A stretch of 64,000 nucleotides of DNA from Ichthyenterobacterium magnum (GTDB lineage: Bacteria; Bacteroidota; Bacteroidia; Flavobacteriales; Flavobacteriaceae). A program made the position numbers and the translations under genes. Below the pieces are notes generated by a model. It ran no database searches. It saw only the letters and a list, made by a program, of their open reading frames with translations, and was not told the origin of the DNA. The DNA lies in NCBI RefSeq assembly GCF_003610635.1, contig NZ_RAQJ01000001.1, positions 496,474 to 560,473 on the forward strand, given 5' to 3'. Numbering within the stretch: the stretch's first letter is position 1; each line of letters starts with the position of its first letter. This document shows, piece by piece, positions 35,002-50,670 of the stretch.

Positions 35002-35856
35002 ATGAATAAATTCCTTTTCTCAATATTATTTCTTGCTACAAGTTGCAATACTGGTAACTTAAAAGTTATAGCAGATTTACCTATAGATTTAAATGAGGTT
35101 TCTGGCTTAACAGTTGATCAAAAAAACAATGTTTTTTGGATGATAAATGATAGTGGAAATAAATCAATTCTATATGGATTAGACAAAAATGGAACTATTA
35201 TAAGAGAGATTTTTATTCATGCAAAAAATAGAGATTGGGAAGATTTAACTACAGATATATATGGCAATATTTATATTGGTGACTTTGGGAATAATGATAA
35301 TGATAGTAAAGAATTAGCAATCTTAAAAATTGCGAAAGATTCGCTTAACAATAAAACTATTATTCCTGAAAGAATTTCATTCACTTATCCAGAACAAAAA
35401 AAATTCCCTCCCAAAAAAAGCAAACGTCATTTTGATTGCGAATCATTTTTCTTCTATAAAGATAGTCTTTACTTATTTACTAAAAGCAGAGTGTCAAAGA
35501 AAAAAGGACAAACAAATTTGTATCAGTTACCTTCAAAAAAAGGCCAATATAAAGCCAAATTACTAAGCTCATTTAATACTTGTGAAGAATCAGAATGTTG
35601 GGTTACTTCTGCTGACATAAATAAAGAAGGAAACAAAATGGCTTTATTAACTGAAAGCAATGTGTTTATTTTTTCAGACTTCAAAGACAATGATTTTTTT
35701 AATGGATATGTAACGAAATATAATTTTAATTTCAACTCACAAAAAGAAAGTGTATTTTTCAAAAATGACAGTACTCTTTATATTGCAGATGAATATTTAG
35801 GAATTCATGGTGGCAATTTATACGAGTTTAGCTTAAATGTTAAATCTAAAAATTAA
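35002..35856 (+). CDS. Lipoprotein with predicted beta-propeller-like repeats, unknown function
   Basis: A 284-residue exported protein with a lipobox-type signal (MNKFLFSILFLATSC). The rest resembles a beta-propeller of the phytase/esterase-like kind: LNEVSGLTVDQKNNVFWMIN, RDWEDLTTDIYGNIYIGDFG, then FDCESFFFYKDSLYLFTKSR and EECWVTSADINKEGNKMALL-like strands. Each repeat pairs 'ground-truth' strings (EVSGL, DWEDL, DCESF, SECWV), a pattern seen in Bacteroidota SdiA/esterase-like proteins whose substrates are unknown. It is convergent with the TesB gene and overlaps it by 4 bp. Confidence 0.7.
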   Translation: MNKFLFSILFLATSCNTGNLKVIADLPIDLNEVSGLTVDQKNNVFWMINDSGNKSILYGLDKNGTIIREIFIHAKNRDWEDLTTDIYGNIYIGDFGNNDNDSKELAILKIAKDSLNNKTIIPERISFTYPEQKKFPPKKSKRHFDCESFFFYKDSLYLFTKSRVSKKKGQTNLYQLPSKKGQYKAKLLSSFNTCEESECWVTSADINKEGNKMALLTESNVFIFSDFKDNDFFNGYVTKYNFNFNSQKESVFFKNDSTLYIADEYLGIHGGNLYEFSLNVKSKN

Positions 35857-37194: not shown

Positions 37195-40100
37195 CTAAAA
37201 CCCAAAGCCCATCTTAAAAGCTATACGTAAACCATCATCACTATTAAAAGCTGAAATATTAGCAGTAATCATATCTGCTGCATTTGCGAAAATTCCACCT
37301 CCAATCGATGTATTCCAATTTCTAGAATTGTCATCTTCAATCCAAACGCGGCCATAATCTAATCCGCCATAAAGCCCAATTTGTAATGGTAGAATTCCTG
37401 TTTTAACTTTTCGTAGATTTAATCTTAAGTCTGTGCTTTGTACAAAAGCTCGCTTACCTGTAAAACGCTCATTTCTGTAACCACGTAATCCTTCATTTGC
37501 TCCAATATTTGCGGCTTGGTAAAACTCAAAACCATCTCCTAAATTAATTTGACCTTTTAATTTTGTAGCTAATACTAATTGTCCGTTTGGCATTAGTTTA
37601 TAATTAAAACCAAGCTCTGGAATAAGATATCCATAGCCTTTTGAAGAATCGATGTTATTTTTATAACCTGTTTGTATAGCAACCATCATTCCTAATGTTG
37701 GAAATGCTTTGTTATCTAAATTTGCATAGTGATATTTAGCATCGATACCATAAAAATTATTACTAACATCTATATTATCACCTATAAAAACATTAATGAA
37801 TCGTCCAGCTGTTTCTTCAATTTCATAAGACTCATAAGCTAATCCTATTTTAAAAATTGCACCTAAACGACCTCTCCAAATTAATGAAGGCGCTAACTTT
37901 ATTGTTCTTAACTTCACACGATTATAGTCTAAATTTACATCAAGACCATCATTCTCGTCAGCTTCTGGATTAGGTGTTTCGTTTCCAAATCCAAAGAAAT
38001 TAATAGCATAATTTGGACTAGTAAACTTAGCATTTAACTTAAGGTTCATGTTTCCAACCACATTTGCAAATTCTCCTTTGTACCCTAAATCGAAACCTTG
38101 AGTAGCAAAATAATATGCGCCAGAGATTGTATGTTGTGACGAAAAAGGATTTCTCTCAAAACCATAATTGGTTATGGTGTTAGTAAACCCAATTTTTAAT
38201 CCGTCATCAGGATTTGAACCTATAGTTGGAATAAATTGGTTACTATTATTTTTTAGTTTCTTATGGTCATAAACATTAATTTGATAATCATCGGTTAGTT
38301 TTTTACTTCCAAGAATAGTAACAAACTTGCTTTCTTTGGTTTTATAATCATACATCTTAACTTTTTTACCATTTTGGATATTGTAAGTATCTCGATTCTG
38401 ACCTCCAATTAATCGTAGTCTAATTAGCTTATCGCCTTCGCCTGAGACCTTAAACACATCATCATCATCTAAGCCATAAATCCATATTTCTTTAGTGTCA
38501 TTACTTGTGTACGTACGTTGGTAAAATACATCTGCTTTTTCACCTTTTTTAATTCTATATCCTGTTACTTTTGTATTGCCCTTTGGCATACGCTTAACCT
38601 CAAACCAATCGTCTTTATTTGTCCCTTTTATAATAGCAAATTGATTAATATGATTGTAATACTCATCAGATATCTTTTGAAGATTTGCTCTTCTCCCTTG
38701 TAGCTTTCGTTTAATCTCTTGTATGGTTTTTTGATTTACTTCTGAAGGAAAATAAGTAAAGGCTTCATCAATAACAGCATCAGTTAAATTCTCGACAATA
38801 TGCTTTACTTGAGCATCCCAAACACTTCGATTAGATTGATTTATTAAGGCCACATCTAAAGGATAAGGTTCTAAATTAAACCACTTTGGGCTTTTTAAAT
38901 CTTCATCATAGCTCTTCATTAAACGTAAAGAAGGTATTACTGTTGTAGCAAAACTTAATAAAGCACCATCTGCCATAATAGAGAATGCTTGGTCTCGATC
39001 TCTTGGCATTGGTCTATAAATCGTTTTACTTTTTTCTTTAAATTTAGCCCAACGCCATTGATCTTCGTGTCTGTCCCAATCGCCAATAAGCATATCAAAT
39101 AAACGCGCTCGTATGTATGCAGCTTCATCTAGTTTATGATCTTCATCTTCATGTAATTCTTTTAACAAATCATCTGTACTAATTAATTCATTTGAAAAAC
39201 CAAAACTTGCCTTATCTCCATGTCCATCTGAGGCACGCTCTTCAATCATATATAACTCATCTCCAAACTCATCATTAAAATGACCTAAAGCATTTTGTTT
39301 TGGTATATAATATAAAACTGGATTTGTATGAAAGATGCCCACTGCTTTAGACAGCGTGCCAATAGTAAAAGGCGCATAAGGATGAGAACCTGTAAACACA
39401 TCTAACAACAAGCCTTCTGTATACGTATCGTTAAATTGCCCTTCAATATATTGATCTTTAAATGCTACAGATTGAAGGTATTGCACGGCATTTTTCCGTA
39501 AAGCTCTCATTACATATTCTCTACCATCTTTATCTTTTAAACGTATGGATTTAGATTGGTGTCCACCTCCTTTTCGTACGACTGTTAAACCACCAAATAA
39601 AGTGTCTAAGTTAACCGTTGGCACTGTTACTTTTTTACTAAAATCATCACGATAACGTTCTCCCCAAAGCGTCTTATAAAGTCTACCTTTTGTTGTTTCT
39701 TTTTCAGAGTATATTGACGTTGTTTTTTTGTTTGAAAAGCTATTTGGGTACGTTGTAAATTTCTTTTTATCGTTTGGTTTTAAAACTTGTGTTTCAAAAA
39801 CTACTTTATTATCTGCTACTGAATAAAACCGAACATAAGACGAACCATCTTTAAACACATCTAACCTAGCATAGCCTGAAGTTCCGTATGAAAATTGACC
39901 GTTACCTACATTTCGTGTTGCTGATACTTTAGATCCAGAACCACTAACAATTTGCGGTAAATTGTCCTGAACAATATACTGTAAATTATGGTCGTGCCCA
40001 GAAACAAAAATGGTTTTATTGTTTTCTTGAGATAAAGTAATGATGCGTTTTCTGAACTCGTTATACAGTTTATTTTGAATATCAACTGTGGTTACTCCAC

Positions 40101-40872
40101 CTGTTTTTCTTATTAAATTTTTTAAAGTTCCTAAAACTGGAATAGGAGACATGTGACTCCCAAAAGAATATTGCCCACCATGAGAACCATTGGTAAACAT
40201 AGGATGATGTACTGCTACAATAGTTGTCTTACCACGTGCCTTTTTTATCTGACTCTCAAATTCATCAAAAAACTTTGTTCGTGTTTTTATCTCACAATCA
40301 TCATTTATCGTTGGGTGTTTATCCCAATTGGTTAAATACCACTCAGAATCTACAAGAATCAAAACAACATCATCTGAGATATTAACCTTTTCTATTGGGC
40401 AGCCATTTTCTGGTAAGAACGTGTTTTTTCCTAACTTATCTTCAACATATTTTTCTTGTCGTTTTAAACCTTTTACACCATCACTATACCAATCATGATT
40501 ACCAGGAATAAAAATAGTTTCACCTTTAAAATTCTCAACAGCATTTATTTGTGTATTAAGCTGGTGTTCTGCAAATGCTCTTTGTTCATGTGATTTTTTT
40601 GGCAACCCATTTTCATAAATATTATCACCTAAAAAAATTACAGTACTGTTTTTAGATGCCTTATTTAATTCTGATTTAAAAGCTTTTATGGTTTGAGAAG
40701 AATTACCAATTGGACTATTTCCGCCATCTCCAATTAAGTAGAATGAATATGCTATTTCTTTATCTGGAAAGAATGCGGTAGCATTATAATTACTATACTG
40801 TGGCTTATACGTTGCGCAAGAACTTATTAAAAAAGTTATAAGAATGAAAACGAGGGAATATTTATGATGCAT
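37195..40872 (-). CDS. Giant lipoprotein: metallophosphatase + kinase-like region + Omp85-type barrel
   Basis: A 1225-residue exported protein with a lipobox signal (FILITFLISSC). Residues about 45-310 are a calcineurin-like metallophosphatase: IGDGGN, FLGDNIYENG, PGNHDW, VHHPMFTNGSHGG and VSGHDHN supply the usual metal ligands. Residues about 430-650 look kinase-like: a glycine-rich GGGHQSKSIRL, EYVMRALRK (candidate ATP lysine, about residue 452), IGDWDRHEDQWRW (about 596) and PRDRDQAFS (about 622), as in HipA/FAM20-type atypical kinases. From about 880 it is strand-rich, with LRGYR (about 1127) and a terminal phenylalanine, as in Omp85 barrels. The phosphatase and barrel are well supported; the kinase reading is inference. 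Confidence 0.8.
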   Translation of the reverse strand: MHHKYSLVFILITFLISSCATYKPQYSNYNATAFFPDKEIAYSFYLIGDGGNSPIGNSSQTIKAFKSELNKASKNSTVIFLGDNIYENGLPKKSHEQRAFAEHQLNTQINAVENFKGETIFIPGNHDWYSDGVKGLKRQEKYVEDKLGKNTFLPENGCPIEKVNISDDVVLILVDSEWYLTNWDKHPTINDDCEIKTRTKFFDEFESQIKKARGKTTIVAVHHPMFTNGSHGGQYSFGSHMSPIPVLGTLKNLIRKTGGVTTVDIQNKLYNEFRKRIITLSQENNKTIFVSGHDHNLQYIVQDNLPQIVSGSGSKVSATRNVGNGQFSYGTSGYARLDVFKDGSSYVRFYSVADNKVVFETQVLKPNDKKKFTTYPNSFSNKKTTSIYSEKETTKGRLYKTLWGERYRDDFSKKVTVPTVNLDTLFGGLTVVRKGGGHQSKSIRLKDKDGREYVMRALRKNAVQYLQSVAFKDQYIEGQFNDTYTEGLLLDVFTGSHPYAPFTIGTLSKAVGIFHTNPVLYYIPKQNALGHFNDEFGDELYMIEERASDGHGDKASFGFSNELISTDDLLKELHEDEDHKLDEAAYIRARLFDMLIGDWDRHEDQWRWAKFKEKSKTIYRPMPRDRDQAFSIMADGALLSFATTVIPSLRLMKSYDEDLKSPKWFNLEPYPLDVALINQSNRSVWDAQVKHIVENLTDAVIDEAFTYFPSEVNQKTIQEIKRKLQGRRANLQKISDEYYNHINQFAIIKGTNKDDWFEVKRMPKGNTKVTGYRIKKGEKADVFYQRTYTSNDTKEIWIYGLDDDDVFKVSGEGDKLIRLRLIGGQNRDTYNIQNGKKVKMYDYKTKESKFVTILGSKKLTDDYQINVYDHKKLKNNSNQFIPTIGSNPDDGLKIGFTNTITNYGFERNPFSSQHTISGAYYFATQGFDLGYKGEFANVVGNMNLKLNAKFTSPNYAINFFGFGNETPNPEADENDGLDVNLDYNRVKLRTIKLAPSLIWRGRLGAIFKIGLAYESYEIEETAGRFINVFIGDNIDVSNNFYGIDAKYHYANLDNKAFPTLGMMVAIQTGYKNNIDSSKGYGYLIPELGFNYKLMPNGQLVLATKLKGQINLGDGFEFYQAANIGANEGLRGYRNERFTGKRAFVQSTDLRLNLRKVKTGILPLQIGLYGGLDYGRVWIEDDNSRNWNTSIGGGIFANAADMITANISAFNSDDGLRIAFKMGFGF

Positions 40873-40952: not shown

Positions 40953-42176
40953 TTAAGCATTTATAATTTCAGTATTAAAAATTACTTCACTAGCTATAGT
41001 TTTATGCACAGGGCAGCGCGATGCAATTTCTTTTAAGCGCTGTTTTTGGGAGTCATCTAAATTTCCAATAAACTTTAACTTTTTATTAATATGATCTAAA
41101 TAACCTGGTTTTTCTATATCTAATTCTAATGCGTCACTATGTTTTCTAGAATGTGAGACATATACAAACACTTCTTGTAAATCCCATTGTTTGCGTTGCG
41201 CATACATTTTTAATGTCATTACTGTACAAGCTGCTAATCCAGCATTTAAATACTCATAAGGCGATGGCCCAAAATCATCTCCTCCAATTGATGCAGGTTC
41301 ATCTGCTATCATACTATGATTTTTAGTTTGAATTGACGTTGTAAAATTGTCTTCAACTAAATTTAAATGACCAACTAATTGTTCGCCATGGGTTTCTAAC
41401 ATATCATTTTCTTGTTGCGGAAAATAGCGCTGTACCCAAGTACCAATTACATTTCCAGCATAATTACTATCGTTAGAATTAGACAACAAGTGATCTGCGT
41501 TATCTAAGGTTACAAAACTTTTTGGATGATGTGCATTCACATACAACTGTTCTGCATTTTTAATACCGACAATGGTATCTGTTGGAGAATGCATTATTAA
41601 CAGCGGTTTTCGTAAGTTTTTTACAACTGAAGGCAAATCGGTTTTATCAAAATCTGAAACAAATTCAGGGTTTATTTTAAATGGTCGCCCACCAATATTT
41701 ACTTCGGTTAATTCGCCCTCTCTTATGGAGTCGATATCATGCGAAAACAAATGCTTAACATGGCTTACCGTAGCTGGTGCACCAATTGTTGCAACAGCTT
41801 TTATGTTTTCTAGTTTTGAAGCGGCACTAATTACAGCTGCGCCACCAAGCGAATGACCTACAATTAATTCTGGCGCTTTATAATTGTTCGTCATAAAATT
41901 GCTTACAGCAATTAAATCTTCAACGTTTCCTGAAAAATGACTTTCGGTAAATTCGCCTTCGCTTTTCCCTAAACCTGTAAAATCAAATCGTACCACACCA
42001 AACCCATAATTGGTTAGTGCCCGACTAATATTTTTTACAGCACTTAACGAACTTGTACAGGTAAAACAATGTGCAAAAATGGCATATCGACTAGGTTTTT
42101 GGTTTGCTGGAAGCTCTAAATAAGCTTGTAATTTAAGTCCTTTTTTATTTTGAATATTGAGTTTCGTGCTTCTCAT
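40953..42176 (-). CDS. Bifunctional alpha/beta hydrolase / OsmC-like protein
   Basis: A 407-residue fusion. Residues about 1-255 are an alpha/beta hydrolase with an HCFTC oxyanion region, the nucleophile elbow [12 protein letters not shown] (Ser about residue 108), and a late aspartate/histidine ([20 protein letters not shown]). Residues about 270-407 are OsmC-like: [37 protein letters not shown] and the C-terminal RCPVHKTI, giving the two peroxidatic cysteines. OsmC enzymes reduce organic hydroperoxides. It is last in a minus-strand run of thiol and methionine-repair genes, overlapping the second MsrA by 32 bp. Confidence 0.9.
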
Positions 42177-42690
42177 TTGTTCTTAAATGATTTAATTTTT
42201 CTTGATTTGTATAAACTGAAAATTGTTTTAATAAAAGCTTCAATTTTGGATTGATAAACGCTTTACAAAAAGGTTTATTTGGGTTCTTTTGATAATAGTT
42301 TTGAATGGCTTCACGTGAGACTTTAAATTCTGAAAAAGGAAATACTTTAGTTATAATCTTATCATCAAAATCTTTTTGAAGGTTTTTAATTATCTCTTTA
42401 GATTCATATTCTTGTTCCTTAGAAAAGGAATATATAGCTGAACGGTATTTTTCTCTCATAGAGTGATTACTTGTGCTTTTATGGGTATGCAAATGAATCT
42501 CTATTAATGCTTTTAATGTAATTTCTTTAGGGTTAAAATGAACGATTACTGCTTCTGAAAATGTATTATTTTCATCAATTGAAGCGACGTATCCTTGTTC
42601 TACTTTTTCAACACCCTTTAAAGATTGAAACACAGCTTCGGTACACCAATGGCAACCACCACCAAACCCTATTTTAGTTTTTCTATCCAT
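42145..42690 (-). CDS. msrA: Peptide-methionine (S)-S-oxide reductase MsrA (copy 1 of 2)
   Basis: Reduces methionine-S-sulfoxide in proteins. The active site is [20 protein letters not shown] (catalytic Cys about residue 12; HW replaces the commoner FW), with [15 protein letters not shown] and [21 protein letters not shown] (a DPT-like region altered to KST). The C-terminal part includes [20 protein letters not shown]. It is more divergent than the msrA at 43553. It overlaps the glutaredoxin-like gene by 22 bp upstream and the hydrolase-OsmC gene by 32 bp downstream. Confidence 0.87.
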
Positions 42691-43552: not shown

Positions 43553-44092
43553 TTATTTTAATTTATCAGCATGTAGTTTTCTCAGTTTTGCCAACTTAGG
43601 TGTAATTACAAAACTACAATAGCCTTGCGTTTGATTATTTTTATAATAATCTTGGTGCTCTTTTTCTGCTTCATAAAACACATCTAAAGGAGAAATTTCT
43701 GTAACAATTGGGTTTTCATAATAAGGTGTTATTTCTTTTGAAACAAGTTCAGCAATTTCCTTTTGCAAATCGTTATGATAATAAATTACCGAACGATATT
43801 GTGTGCCTACATCTGCACCTTGTCGATTCAAAGTTGTTGGATCGTGAGTGGTCATGAAAATCACTAAAACATCTTCATACGAAATGATATTAGCATCAAA
43901 AGTTACTTGTACTACCTCGGCATGCCCAGTTAAACCTGAGCAAATCTCTCTGTATGTTGGATGCCCTGGAGCGTTTCCACCAGAATACCCAGAAACTACT
44001 TTTTCTACACCTTTTACTTCTTGAAACACAGCTTCTGTACACCAAAAACAGCCACCACCAAATGTGGCTAATTGTAGGTTTTTAGTTGTCAT
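43553..44092 (-). CDS. msrA: Peptide-methionine (S)-S-oxide reductase MsrA (copy 2 of 2)
   Basis: Canonical MsrA of 179 residues: [20 protein letters not shown] with catalytic cysteine (about residue 15), SGYSGGNAPGHPTYREICSG, TGHAEVVQVTFD, MTTHDPTTLNRQGADVGTQY and YHNDLQKEIAELV. It reduces the S-epimer of methionine sulfoxide. Its start lies inside the end of msrB (11-bp overlap), so MsrB and MsrA are made together and cover both sulfoxide epimers. Confidence 0.95.
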   Translation of the reverse strand: MTTKNLQLATFGGGCFWCTEAVFQEVKGVEKVVSGYSGGNAPGHPTYREICSGLTGHAEVVQVTFDANIISYEDVLVIFMTTHDPTTLNRQGADVGTQYRSVIYYHNDLQKEIAELVSKEITPYYENPIVTEISPLDVFYEAEKEHQDYYKNNQTQGYCSFVITPKLAKLRKLHADKLK

Positions 44093-44543
44093 TTGAAATC
44101 TCCTTTTCTAGTTGCATCGATTCTGAATTAATACAATAACGCAATCCGCTTGGTTCTGGTCCATCAGGAAATACGTGCCCTAAATGGGCATCGCAAGTAT
44201 TACACATCACCTCAACGCGCACCATTCCAAAAGCCGTATCTCTTTCATACTTAATAGCGTTTTCTTTTATAGGTTGCGTAAAACTAGGCCAACCTGTACC
44301 AGAACTAAATTTAATTGTAGAATCGAACAAAGGTGTATTGCAACACACACAATTATACTTGCCTGCATCGTGAGCACTACAAAGCGCGCCACTATGTGGT
44401 CGTTCAGTACCTTTTTGTCTTGTAATTCTAAATTGCTCTGGAGTTAATTGAGCTTGCCATTGGGCTTCTGATTTTTCAACTCGCTTATCTGGAGTTGGAT
44501 TTCCTTTTACGGAAAAGTTGATGACTTCTTTCCAAGTTAGCAT
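44082..44543 (-). CDS. msrB: Peptide-methionine (R)-S-oxide reductase MsrB
   Basis: Reduces the R-epimer of methionine sulfoxide. Seen: zinc cysteines CVCC and CNTC, SSGTGWPSFTQP, AHLGHVFPDGPEPSGLRYC and INSESMQL with the catalytic cysteine in RYCINS (about residue 143). The 153-residue length is standard. It heads the operon msrB-msrA-(repeat)-redoxin-glutaredoxin-msrA-hydrolase/OsmC. The 247-bp gap to the YHS gene holds a terminator hairpin and otherwise AT-rich sequence with no gene. Confidence 0.95.
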   Translation of the reverse strand: MLTWKEVINFSVKGNPTPDKRVEKSEAQWQAQLTPEQFRITRQKGTERPHSGALCSAHDAGKYNCVCCNTPLFDSTIKFSSGTGWPSFTQPIKENAIKYERDTAFGMVRVEVMCNTCDAHLGHVFPDGPEPSGLRYCINSESMQLEKEISNDN

Positions 44544-46960: not shown

Positions 46961-48157
46961 ATGGATACACTTATTGCTAAGACCGAAAGTTATGTTGTTA
47001 ATTTCTTAAATGAAAACCTAGACAAATCTTTTATTTATCATAATCTAGCACATACAAAACGTGTTGTAGAAAAAGCTCAAGAACTTGCTGATGGAGAACA
47101 GATAGAGCCTTCTCAAAAAGACCTTTTAATTTTAGCTTCTTGGTTTCATGATGTTGGTTTTGCACAAAACCTAAAAAAACATGAAACACATAGTGTTGCT
47201 ATTGCCAAAGATTTTTTAAAATCTCAAAATCAATCTGAAGCTGATATTAAAACAGTTTCAGATTTAATTATGGCAACTCAAATGGGTCATGAGCCCCAAA
47301 ATATTTTAGAAAAAATTATTCAAGATGCAGATTGCTCTCATATTGGCAGCAAAAATTTTAGTGATTTAACCGAACTACTTCGCAAAGAATGGGAATTAAC
47401 TTGCGATAAAACATTAACTGAGTCTGAATGGTTAAAAGAAAATATTGATTTTTTATCTAATCATCATCGATTCTATACAGATTTTGCTTCATCTAATTGG
47501 GAAAAAACAAAAGGCAAAAACTTAGCTCGATTATTAAAATCTCAAAAAAAGCTGACTCAAGACTCTATTAAATTAAAGCAAAAAAAAGAAGAATTAGCTT
47601 TTAAAAAAACCAAAGTAGAATTACCAGAACGTGGCATAGAAACCATGTTTAGAGTAGCTTTAAGAAACCACATAACCCTAAGTGATATTGCCGATACTAA
47701 AGCTAATATTTTATTATCTGTAAACGCAATTATTATATCGTTGGTGCTTTCTAATTTAGTATCAAAGCTAGATAATCCATCAAACGATTATTTAATATGG
47801 CCTACTGTTATTTTTACATTATTTACTGTAGCATCTATTGTGCTTTCAGTTTTGGCAACACGACCAAACGTAACTCAAGGAAAATTTAACAAACAAGATG
47901 TAGCAGATAAAAAAGTAAATCTTCTATTTTTTGGGAATTTTCATAAAATGAACCTTGACGAGTTTGAATGGGCAATGCACGAAATGATGAAAGATAGAGA
48001 TTACCTTTATGGCTCTTTAACTAAAGATTTATACTTTTTAGGGTTAGTATTAAACAGAAAATATAATTTACTTCGCTTAACTTATACTGTTTTTATGATT
48101 GGTATTGTTATTAGTGTATTATCCTTTGCTGTAGCTTTTTATTTGCAGAGTCTTTAA
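46961..48157 (+). CDS. HD-domain protein fused to a Pycsar-type (PycTM) membrane effector domain
   Basis: A 398-residue fusion. Residues about 1-185 form an HD phosphohydrolase: NLAHTKRVVEK, LASWFHDVGFAQNLKKHE (the HD pair) and IIQDADCSHIGS (the late Asp). A lysine-rich linker follows, then the PycTM domain (about 220-398): ITLSDIADTKANILLSVNAI then ISLVLSNLV, two helices, VNLLFFGNFHKMNLDEF, MKDRDYLYGSLTKDLYFLG and a last helix. PycTM proteins act as cCMP/cUMP-responsive effectors in Pycsar defence, but no pyrimidine cyclase is present here, so the partner is unknown. It is divergent from the AraC gene. Confidence 0.85.
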   Translation: MDTLIAKTESYVVNFLNENLDKSFIYHNLAHTKRVVEKAQELADGEQIEPSQKDLLILASWFHDVGFAQNLKKHETHSVAIAKDFLKSQNQSEADIKTVSDLIMATQMGHEPQNILEKIIQDADCSHIGSKNFSDLTELLRKEWELTCDKTLTESEWLKENIDFLSNHHRFYTDFASSNWEKTKGKNLARLLKSQKKLTQDSIKLKQKKEELAFKKTKVELPERGIETMFRVALRNHITLSDIADTKANILLSVNAIIISLVLSNLVSKLDNPSNDYLIWPTVIFTLFTVASIVLSVLATRPNVTQGKFNKQDVADKKVNLLFFGNFHKMNLDEFEWAMHEMMKDRDYLYGSLTKDLYFLGLVLNRKYNLLRLTYTVFMIGIVISVLSFAVAFYLQSL

Positions 48158-50536
48158 TTACTTAAACTCTTCCATCAATTCATCTATAGTCATTGAAGAT
48201 TTTTCACAAAAATTATCTTTATAAATCACTTCAACTCGTAACGCTTTTAAACCAGAAACACCTTGTAAGTCTTCAAGTATTAACTCTTCTAGCTTACCTA
48301 AACAACCTTTAGATTGAAGGTACTTAATATACTTTCTATATTCTCGTGCATCTTTATCTTGAGAATAGACAATAGCTATTTTTCCAGGTACTGTTAATCG
48401 CTCGTCTGTGTTTTTAATATGTGCTTTATCTATTCGTTTTTTAATAATCTCGTAACGAATATTATAAGCACCATCTACATCAAATTGCTTTTCATCCATA
48501 CGAAATTTAATAGCCATAGGATTACTATGCACTAAAATTAAAGAGGCTACTTGTAAATCATGTTCCAATTGCTTTCTGGTATTAAAAGCCACTTGTTCCA
48601 TTTCGTAAGTATTCTGTAATTGCCAAAGGCGAAGATTGTATAAATACAAATCGTCAAAGGTTTTGTTTTTAACCAAAGACTGACCTATATACATATTGTA
48701 TTCTACACCATCCGTTTTATAGCGTTCAAAATAATGAGGAAACATAGCTTGCGCTTCTTCTTGTTTCTTGTCAATAAAGTTTGCTAATTTTTCATTAAGC
48801 AACATAACACTATATTCATAAGCTTTACGTTTTTCATAAACCACATGAAGATCTTTATCTAGTCTATTCATATAGACTTCTACCAATTCCTTTAGTTCAT
48901 TATTTATCACTTTTATATGGCTAAATACAGGGTAAATGTCACGTTTAAGAAAATCTAAAATTCCAATTTCATCACCAGCTTTAAGCCCTTCTTTTACGTC
49001 GACTATATATTCTTCTACTCTGAACATTAACTCTTTGTAAATTGGCAATTTTTCAGTCTGACAAGCTTCTTTAAGCACCTTAATTGCTAAGGTTAACTGT
49101 GTTGTTAAATCTTCTTTTATTGCTGTATTTCTAGCTAAAGAGGAGCCTTTAATATCACTTTGCCCAAATAAAGGATACACGTCGTTAAAGACGATATCAT
49201 CTATTTGCGGATTCTCCTCTTTGTTATATAAATCTGTTTGGTATTTTTCTGCTGCTTCATAAAAACGCCATTTAACTGTAGGATGAATAGATGTATAATG
49301 TTCTTGAATTGTTGCTTCAAGCGTGTTTAAATACTCTTCAGAACTTCGCTCAACAGCAGCTTCAAATACAGGAATAATATCTACTAACTTTTGTTGGTTT
49401 ACTGAGTTAAGCTCATAAGGTCTAGGAGATGCAATTTCTAAAAGTGCTAAATCATTATGTTTAGAAGCTTTAATAGGAATTAAGATAATGCTACCAATAC
49501 CTTTCTCTTTTAAACGCTTATAAAACGTATTGTGTCCAGAAGATTCACCATAAGCATCGACATTAGATATCGCTACAGGTTCTATTTTATTAAATACTTT
49601 ATCTATAATATGTAAACAAAAAAACGTTCTGCAAGACACCATTTGTTCATTATCTAATATTAAACTTTCAGATTTTTTAATTCTTGTAGACTCTAAACTT
49701 TTATTTGCGATTTCAAAAAGTGAAAACCCTAGTTTTAAATCACTAATTCTATAAAATTCACTTAAGCTTAAACGTAATTTTTGTACGATGCTACCATCAT
49801 CTTTTTTAAGAAGGTCTGAACGAATTTCTGAAATAGTTTGATCCTGAGTAACATCAAATAAGTTCATAATTCCAAACCCTTTCAAGACATAACTGTTTGG
49901 CGGAAACTTTTCTTTCCAAATATCGATATTGTGAAAATTGTCTAACAATAATTTAATATCTTCATCTGTAATTTCTGGTGCAGCATCTGTTTTAACAATA
50001 TCCATAAAATCACCATTAAGCGCAACACGATAATGATGTGTGATACCGTTATTTTTATTTGGAAAATCAAAGAAAAATGGACGTTTAAAGTCAATTGGCT
50101 TGTTATAAACTGACATTAAAATTATGGTACAAGCTGCAATATACATTTGGCTTTCTTCCATGTTTCTAACCTTAAAATCAAAGTCCTTGCCTGCATTTTC
50201 TAAAATAGATTCAAAACGTTTAGAAAATTTAAACGATGTAAAAGAAAATGGTACGCTAGCTGCTTTTATCTCATTATCTGTTAAGATTTCAGGAAACAAT
50301 CCTTCTAGCATTAAATCTATCTGATCGGCATATTTATCTAATAATGAAAAATCATCAAAGCCTTCTACCAGTTCTGGAAATTGCCCTAAATATTCTGATA
50401 CTTGTTTAGCAGACTTATGGTAAGGATGATTTACATCTTCAGCATATTTTTTATAAAAATCGAATACCTTTGCAAAACTTACAAAAAGCTGCATTGGTAA
50501 TTCTGGTGTTTTATGTTTAGAATGAATAATTTTCAT
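48158..50536 (-). CDS. GAF-domain-containing cytosolic protein
   Basis: A long soluble protein (792 residues from the ATG at 50536; an in-frame ATG at 50557 adds 7). A middle part at about residues 255-405 has GAF-like features (KLGFSLFEIANKSL, VSCRTFFCLHIIDKVFNKI, IGSIILIPIKASKHNDLALLE). The rest is helix- and coiled-coil-rich with no recognisable catalytic motif. It ends at the base after the HD-PycTM stop, so the two converge without overlap. Role unknown; signal sensing via GAF is possible. Confidence 0.72.
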   Translation of the reverse strand: MKIIHSKHKTPELPMQLFVSFAKVFDFYKKYAEDVNHPYHKSAKQVSEYLGQFPELVEGFDDFSLLDKYADQIDLMLEGLFPEILTDNEIKAASVPFSFTSFKFSKRFESILENAGKDFDFKVRNMEESQMYIAACTIILMSVYNKPIDFKRPFFFDFPNKNNGITHHYRVALNGDFMDIVKTDAAPEITDEDIKLLLDNFHNIDIWKEKFPPNSYVLKGFGIMNLFDVTQDQTISEIRSDLLKKDDGSIVQKLRLSLSEFYRISDLKLGFSLFEIANKSLESTRIKKSESLILDNEQMVSCRTFFCLHIIDKVFNKIEPVAISNVDAYGESSGHNTFYKRLKEKGIGSIILIPIKASKHNDLALLEIASPRPYELNSVNQQKLVDIIPVFEAAVERSSEEYLNTLEATIQEHYTSIHPTVKWRFYEAAEKYQTDLYNKEENPQIDDIVFNDVYPLFGQSDIKGSSLARNTAIKEDLTTQLTLAIKVLKEACQTEKLPIYKELMFRVEEYIVDVKEGLKAGDEIGILDFLKRDIYPVFSHIKVINNELKELVEVYMNRLDKDLHVVYEKRKAYEYSVMLLNEKLANFIDKKQEEAQAMFPHYFERYKTDGVEYNMYIGQSLVKNKTFDDLYLYNLRLWQLQNTYEMEQVAFNTRKQLEHDLQVASLILVHSNPMAIKFRMDEKQFDVDGAYNIRYEIIKKRIDKAHIKNTDERLTVPGKIAIVYSQDKDAREYRKYIKYLQSKGCLGKLEELILEDLQGVSGLKALRVEVIYKDNFCEKSSMTIDELMEEFK

Positions 50537-50670
50537 TTTGTCGCTTCTGTAATTCATAAAGATACAAATTGTAGATTTAGTCGTAAAATATATGACGAGT
50601 TAACACGCGTTTTGTTACAGAAATTAATAGTGTAATTATAGTTAAAACCAATGTATCTCTTATATAAACA

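Follow-up and report, generated by a model that had tools for sequence, protein, structure and literature searches.

The window analysed here is a stretch of 64,000 nucleotides from Ichthyenterobacterium magnum (Flavobacteriaceae; NCBI RefSeq assembly GCF_003610635.1, contig NZ_RAQJ01000001.1, positions 496,474 to 560,473 of the forward strand). One gene on its reverse strand encodes a predicted lipoprotein of 1225 amino acids, in which a purple-acid-type phosphatase, an atypical kinase fold, a beta-rich connector and an Omp85-type barrel are joined in a single chain. The protein probably belongs to an envelope kinase-phosphatase module with PycTM and propeller partners (probability of about 0.62 for this reading as a whole). 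The family is characterized by three predicted folds, two conserved active sites, reciprocal losses in tandem copies, reuse of the kinase in other architectures, and linkage to and co-loss with PycTM. From here we infer catalysis, the periplasmic side, the substrate and the roles of the partners.

Domain architecture

37195..40872, reverse strand: whole gene, lipoprotein with purple-acid-type phosphatase, atypical kinase fold, beta connector and Omp85 barrel; 1225 amino acids, ATG start
40816..40872, reverse strand: signal peptide and lipobox with predicted lipidated Cys19 (ISSC19), from sequence
39772..40764, reverse strand: calcineurin-like/purple acid phosphatase domain, residues ~37-367 (PF00149, fold, motif tallies)
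38638..39675, reverse strand: kinase-fold domain, residues ~400-745 (structure model)
39058..39081, reverse strand: catalytic-loop motif DWDRHEDQ, residues 598-605; D600 putatively catalytic, Q605 in the putative Asn position
38983..39006, reverse strand: putative metal-binding-loop motif PRDRDQAF, residues 623-630, with D625 and D627
38248..38637, reverse strand: beta-rich connector, residues ~746-875 (strands in the full-length model), in the place of the POTRA domains of BamA/TamA
37198..38247, reverse strand: Omp85-type beta barrel, residues ~876-1225, 16 long strands (structure model, DSSP)
37474-37488, reverse strand: loop-6 motif LRGYR at residue 1129, between barrel strands 11 and 12

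The full-length model (residues 26-1225, 57 aligned rows) has three confidently modelled parts, with a predicted local distance difference test (pLDDT) of 90.1 and a predicted template modelling score (pTM) of 0.87. As three predicted folds were found, the reading of this open reading frame (ORF) as a phosphatase-kinase-barrel protein, made in the original prediction from the sequence alone, holds at the level of predicted folds. The phosphatase is identified by its Pfam match, while the structure model carries the barrel. The proposed lipoprotein nature is borne out at the level of prediction by ISSC19 and by a lipobox in 104 of 120 full-length homologues; 12 of the 16 misses keep Cys-Ala at this place (by eye).

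PF00149 matches residues 56-295 with an E-value of 1.3e-10, above the family cut-off. The modelled fold resembles pig purple acid phosphatase (1ute) with a Z-score of 28.4 over 268 aligned residues (3.0 Å, 21% identity), and the window protein matches mammalian purple acid phosphatase in sequence (E 7.5e-4). The phosphatase motifs are GDGG, GDNIY, GNHDW, HHP and GHDHN, and the metal-ligand motifs are retained in most homologues.

The NCBIfam family Omp85_fam matches residues 1049-1194 (E 5.9e-15), yet with 55.6 bits below the 200-bit cut-off. In the model, the barrel resembles TamA (Z 24.9) and BamA (Z 24.8), and 16 long strands were counted by DSSP. The loop-6 motif, LRGYR or LRGFR, occurs in 104 of 120 proteins. 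Among 116 proteins of ten listed variants, 109 have RG and the other 7 only R. The position of LRGYR between strands 11 and 12 is presumably the place of loop 6 in BamA.

Kinase domain

All motifs of the original prediction are present: RKGGGHQ (GGG 435-437), EYVMRALRK (R456, K460), DWDRHEDQWRW (D598, D600, Q605) and PRDRDQAFS (D625, D627). The kinase assignment had been staked beforehand on a kinase fold in residues 400-700, and the model of the region (residues 383-760, 67 aligned rows; pLDDT 91.2, pTM 0.90) matches PI4K-II, CotH, CtkA, HipA and Fam20. A Foldseek search of the Protein Data Bank (PDB) ranked CtkA first (E 4.3e-6), with Rio2, PI4K-II, HipT and CotH within the top 13. A DALI-like comparison of the model gave PI4K-II beta as best match (Z 15.4, 260 aligned residues, 4.4 Å, 10% identity), followed by CotH (Z 14.8, 251 aligned), CtkA (13.6, 235), HipA (12.0, 220) and Fam20 (10.7, 228). 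The likeness to HipA/FAM20-type kinases proposed earlier stands insofar as the fold matches both; the nearest folds are PI4K-II, CotH and CtkA. FAM20 was rejected as the closest relative, since these three rank higher structurally, which leaves it among the candidates. The model thus supports a bilobal kinase fold of the PI4K/HipA/CotH/Fam20 superfamily.

In the model, the motif residues occupy two loops, one following a long C-lobe helix and the other the next beta hairpin. A weak alignment with CtkA places D600 on residue 155, Q605 on N160 and D625 one residue off D179; we take residues 155, N160 and D179 to be the catalytic residues of CtkA. Profile-profile comparison with CotH yielded a score of 43.5 (E 5.6e-5) for alignment A1, in which the Asp-loop and D-x-D..F motifs are aligned. 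A profile from a deeper alignment scored 33.8 against CotH; reversed controls reached 14.6-17.7 and an unrelated family 23.4. For this deeper comparison, 8 decayed or cut rows were dropped and, after removal of short ones, 28 of 30 CotH rows and 27 of 30 HipA rows were kept; a high connector score in it reflects 16 shared residues only. On sequence and model, the domain may be filed as a new family of the PI4K/CotH/HipA/Fam20 superfamily rather than within CotH or HipA.

Conservation of the motifs exceeds chance: all 67 rows, which are 33-78% identical to the window protein, share G436, G437, Q439, R456, K460, D598, W599, D600, R601, H602, Q605, W606, D625 and D627. The rows were collected with the pattern W[DE]RH..Q, so that the invariance of W599, R601, H602, Q605 and partly D600 is not independent. 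An unfiltered profile set of 141 domain rows from 113 genomes holds R456 in 127 rows, K460 in 132, D600 in 127, Q605 in 128 (N in 5), D625 in 128 and D627 in 126. By conservation and position, a Gly-rich loop, a basic beta-3 residue, a putative catalytic Asp and a putative metal Asp are present. W606, W608 and a second Asp, D627, are unusual conserved residues outside this core. Columns conserved to at least 98% number 31 of 346 in the kinase, 15 of 333 in the phosphatase, 3 of 130 in the connector and 12 of 350 in the barrel, counted on 106 phosphatase-bearing proteins less than 80% identical and mostly from the motif-filtered set.

Both active sites and split tandem copies

A homology-based set comprises 132 distinct ORFs with phosphatase, kinase and barrel (135 before removal of repeats). 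Both sites are intact in 117, the kinase only in 13, the phosphatase only in 2, and neither in 0. One kinase-only member, L090, is merely cut at its N-terminus, which reduces this class to 12; 8 of the 13 have lost at least three ligands. The search that contributed 77 of the 132 included WDRHEDQW among its patterns. The remaining 55, found without a kinase motif, divide into 44 with both sites, 9 with the kinase only, 2 with the phosphatase only and 0 with neither. An earlier set, picked by kinase motif, had suggested that no phosphatase-bearing protein loses the kinase; the two kinase-dead members of the 132 rule this out.

The two kinase-dead copies lie in tandem arrays. In genome G027, L330 (C1:95771-99463) lacks Q605, D625 and the Gly loop and has kept its phosphatase; the adjoining L036 has lost five phosphatase ligands and kept its kinase. 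Genome G012 harbors three consecutive genes of this kind. L035 and one gene of L126, at the two ends, have an intact kinase and a dead phosphatase, and the gene between them (also of L126) has a dead kinase and an intact phosphatase. Such reciprocal loss, seen in two genomes only, points to two activities that are both required and operate jointly.

Second copies with 3-7 lost phosphatase ligands and an intact kinase were also observed as L125 (G031), L127 (G007), L128 (G013) and L129 (G010). Each of these genomes carries another copy with intact phosphatase ligands.

Other architectures of the kinase

Among 48 kinase ORFs from 44 stretches, 11 combine phosphatase, kinase, connector and barrel, 23 have kinase and barrel without phosphatase, 8 have kinase and connector without barrel or phosphatase, and 6 consist of the kinase alone. 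These counts do not give prevalence, because the stretches were chosen to sample frame lengths; not every start and contig end is certain. A hydrophobic segment (by eye) opens five of the six kinase-alone forms and would anchor the lone kinase facing the periplasm. A conserved CF(E/D)C tail closes the kinase-alone relatives L117-L120. L234 (G130:C27:60000-69500) comprises three adjoining barrel-less genes for kinase and connector, one of which has Ser in the position of the putative catalytic Asp. Decayed kinases were seen among the phosphatase-less barrel forms; those still joined to a barrel belong to several families (L239, L240, L241, L242, L247, L248, L249, L250 and L251). Plasmid records gave five matches, four with an annotated feature, all named hypothetical protein.

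Linked genes

In the loci of relatives, a membrane protein of the (HD-)PycTM type and a propeller lipoprotein are encoded near the kinase gene. The window carries both:

46961..48157, forward strand: HD-PycTM membrane protein, 398 amino acids, linked partner gene (PF18967 and PF01966)
35002..35856, forward strand: beta-propeller lipoprotein, distant relative of the SdiA-regulated family, second linked gene

The PycTM cluster was formed by single linkage; scanning of 8 distant members found PycTM in 7 and HD only in one, which is truncated by a stretch end. The cluster was present in 63 of the 80 loci of one search, and in 40 of 75 loci with the cluster it lies divergently right next to the kinase gene. 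In 296 Bacteroidota genomes, the kinase was found in 113 and some PycTM in 112. A strong PycTM was defined as a match with E 7.8e-20 or better (100 genomes), a line drawn after the table had been seen. Kinase and strong PycTM occur together in 93 genomes, PycTM only in 7, the kinase only in 20 and neither in 176. The two genes are at most 15 kilobases (kb) apart in 81 of the 93 genomes (median 2.8 kb) and at most 5 kb in 69. In the other 12 they lie on different contigs (10) or 48 and 513 kb apart (2). A weak-type PycTM was within 15 kb in 0 of 15 kinase genomes.

Kinase copies were read from all 113 genomes, and those with D600, Q or N605, D625 and D627 were taken as intact. At least one intact copy is present in 100 genomes, 93 of which have a strong PycTM; 13 genomes have no intact copy, and a strong PycTM occurs in 0 of these 13. 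The co-loss of kinase residues and strong PycTM has a Fisher p of 2e-12, uncorrected for kinship among genomes that are not independent. Four families (f30, f31, f33 and f48) hold both states, so the co-loss was not one event. Among the 13, the match in G092 stops short of the catalytic positions, and those in G071, G072 and G295 are partial.

Two groups of propellers are homologous (hhalign 98.1%, E 1.2e-13). Among the matches listed, propellers with E 1e-40 or better occur in 71 of 296 genomes, 65 of them with the kinase and 52 within 5 kb of it, counted with a profile built from linked copies and hence biased towards them.

Most of the nearest neighbours in the window (thioesterase, SRPBCC, hydrolase and Msr, by eye) are not among the recurring genes, and the HD-PycTM gene is further out because other genes intervene. 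Two MsrA-like genes and one MsrB-like gene (named by eye) occupy 42145-42690, 43553-44092 and 44082-44543. Beside HD-PycTM, 48158-50557 encodes a protein of 799 amino acids; its relatives were found in 49 loci, with a median distance to the kinase of two genes.

Proposed function and alternatives

Most likely, the kinase phosphorylates a component of the envelope, which may be a lipid, a glycan or a protein. In most phosphatase-bearing copies, the purple-acid-type phosphatase of the same chain would remove or trim phosphate, and in two genomes both activities appear to be divided between tandem copies. The protein would work with the inner-membrane (HD-)PycTM protein and the propeller lipoprotein as an envelope-spanning module.

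Several findings speak against this reading. Pfam gave no family for the kinase region of the window protein up to E 10. In the 67 members, HipA_C (PF07804, best E 0.088, 3 members) and CotH (PF08757, E 0.038, 1 member) stayed below the thresholds, and the plainly unrelated EnY2, matched in 15 members, reached E 0.0023. A kinase assignment from sequence only was rejected, the Pfam families being scattered and weak and EnY2, the most frequent, being taken as chance. A profile search of the PDB placed CtkA fourth (E 0.1), below three chance matches to HDAC6, which ranked first because the string DWD.H matches. The CotH score fell from 43.5 to 33.8 with the deeper alignment. HipA scored 24.7, no better than the unrelated family, and was rejected as an assignment by profile-profile comparison. 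Foldseek gave only modest TM-scores for CtkA, PI4K-II, HipT and CotH (0.31-0.45 over the query). Q605 stands in for the usual metal-binding Asn, and D600 is replaced by Ser in two barrel-less copies. Kinase residues are lost in the two kinase-dead copies that bear a phosphatase, and in 13 of 113 genomes no intact kinase was read. Seven kinase-intact genomes, five from one genus (g101), are without PycTM. If every PycTM match is counted, 3 of the 13 genomes (G072, G239 and G293) have a weak, unlinked one. The retrospective line for strong PycTM and the relatedness of the genomes in the co-loss test count here as well. Finally, ATP is not expected in the periplasm.

With the kinase fold taken as real, it is unlikely that the enzyme transfers a group other than phosphate, such as AMP, glutamate, a sugar or a lipid head group, in the manner of the kinase-fold families SelO and SidJ. 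Such a transfer would suit the unusual W606, W608 and D627 and a site at which ATP would not be expected. In most copies, however, the Gly loop, the beta-3 basic residues and the catalytic and metal Asp are kept together, as in a phosphotransferase, and a phosphatase is part of the same chain.

We consider it rather improbable that the protein is an outer-membrane assembly or translocation factor of the BamA/TamA type, to which both soluble domains are accessory. The 16-strand barrel, its loop-6 motif and the Z-score of 24.9 to TamA fit such a role, and assembly is the conservative hypothesis for uncharacterised Omp85 subfamilies in the survey of Heinz and Lithgow (2014; PMC4104836). Against this, a Pfam scan of the window protein found no POTRA match, and barrel-less forms retain the kinase.

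A structural or nucleotide-sensing pseudokinase regulating the phosphatase or the barrel is improbable. The persistence of decayed versions, the 13 of 113 genomes with no intact copy and the Q in the place of Asn would be explained by it. The catalytic residues are nevertheless retained in 12 copies with lost phosphatase ligands, a kinase-intact copy adjoins each of the two kinase-dead phosphatase copies, and the kinase is also found alone.

The original prediction left the enzyme domains at the surface or in the periplasm. Bacteroidota export some lipoproteins to the surface, and acidic export signals after the lipidated Cys exist in this phylum. Of the 104 lipobox proteins, 103 have at most one acidic residue at positions +2 to +6 after the Cys. 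In PlpD, a domain joined to an Omp85 barrel has been demonstrated to be periplasmic, in a setting described as lacking ATP (PMC11116518). By this analogy and the missing acidic signal, the enzyme domains are likelier periplasmic than at the surface, and a surface-exposed, autotransporter-like phosphatase-kinase, for which the general surface export of lipoproteins speaks, is highly improbable.

The envelope kinase-phosphatase reading could tentatively be extended to a Bacteroidota-wide phosphorylation module, an extension that we regard as doubtful. PycTM might make, release or signal through a nucleotide or other donor, the outer-membrane kinase-phosphatase might draw on this donor to add phosphate groups at the inner face of the outer membrane and to remove them, and donor supply and kinase would be lost together. 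To our knowledge, little has been documented on phosphorylation beyond the cytoplasm of bacteria, as no donor is known in these compartments. Extracytoplasmic phosphorylation would become directly testable with this unannotated kinase family, which occurs in 113 of the 296 Bacteroidota genomes sampled, lies next to a phosphatase at the outer membrane and is linked to a single inner-membrane gene that tracks its catalytic residues. The tandem copies with opposite losses represent a natural experiment.

Comparison with known systems

The pairing of phosphate-adding and phosphate-removing domains had been put forward as possibly new; a pairing of phosphatase and Omp85 barrel is already found in the Omp85 subfamily 'Metallo', which combines a PF00149 domain with an Omp85-type barrel (Heinz and Lithgow, 2014; PMC4104836). 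Matched by description, this subfamily probably comprises the same proteins as the family of the window protein. PF00149 is called a metalloprotease domain there, a reading that the identity as phosphatase would correct. The available text of PMC4104836 contains no word starting with 'kinase' or 'phosph' and describes neither the kinase, the kinase-only forms nor the gene module. Words starting with metallo, phosphatase, phosphoesterase or kinase are absent from PMC12045153 and PMC12611786. No paper found in the open-access literature describes the kinase family, its architectures or the PycTM/propeller module.

Mammalian purple acid phosphatase (TRAP/ACP5) shares the predicted fold and the GDN and GHDHN motifs, whereas the phosphatase of the window sits inside an outer-membrane fusion. 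With the CotH kinases (PF08757) and CtkA from Helicobacter pylori, the window domain has the predicted kinase fold in common, and the Asp-loop and D-x-D..F motifs are roughly in register. Unlike these, it falls below the Pfam thresholds and is fused to a phosphatase and a barrel. PI4K type II is the nearest structural match of the model, but a eukaryotic lipid kinase. HipA and Fam20 share the fold and the DRH catalytic loop, without a significant sequence match (Fam20C is absent among the 25 of 44 Pfam families listed for the 67 members); Fam20 also works outside the cytosol. PlpD, a patatin-Omp85 protein, resembles the window protein in joining an enzyme domain to an Omp85 barrel. Its enzyme, in contrast, is a lipase, and it has a POTRA domain.

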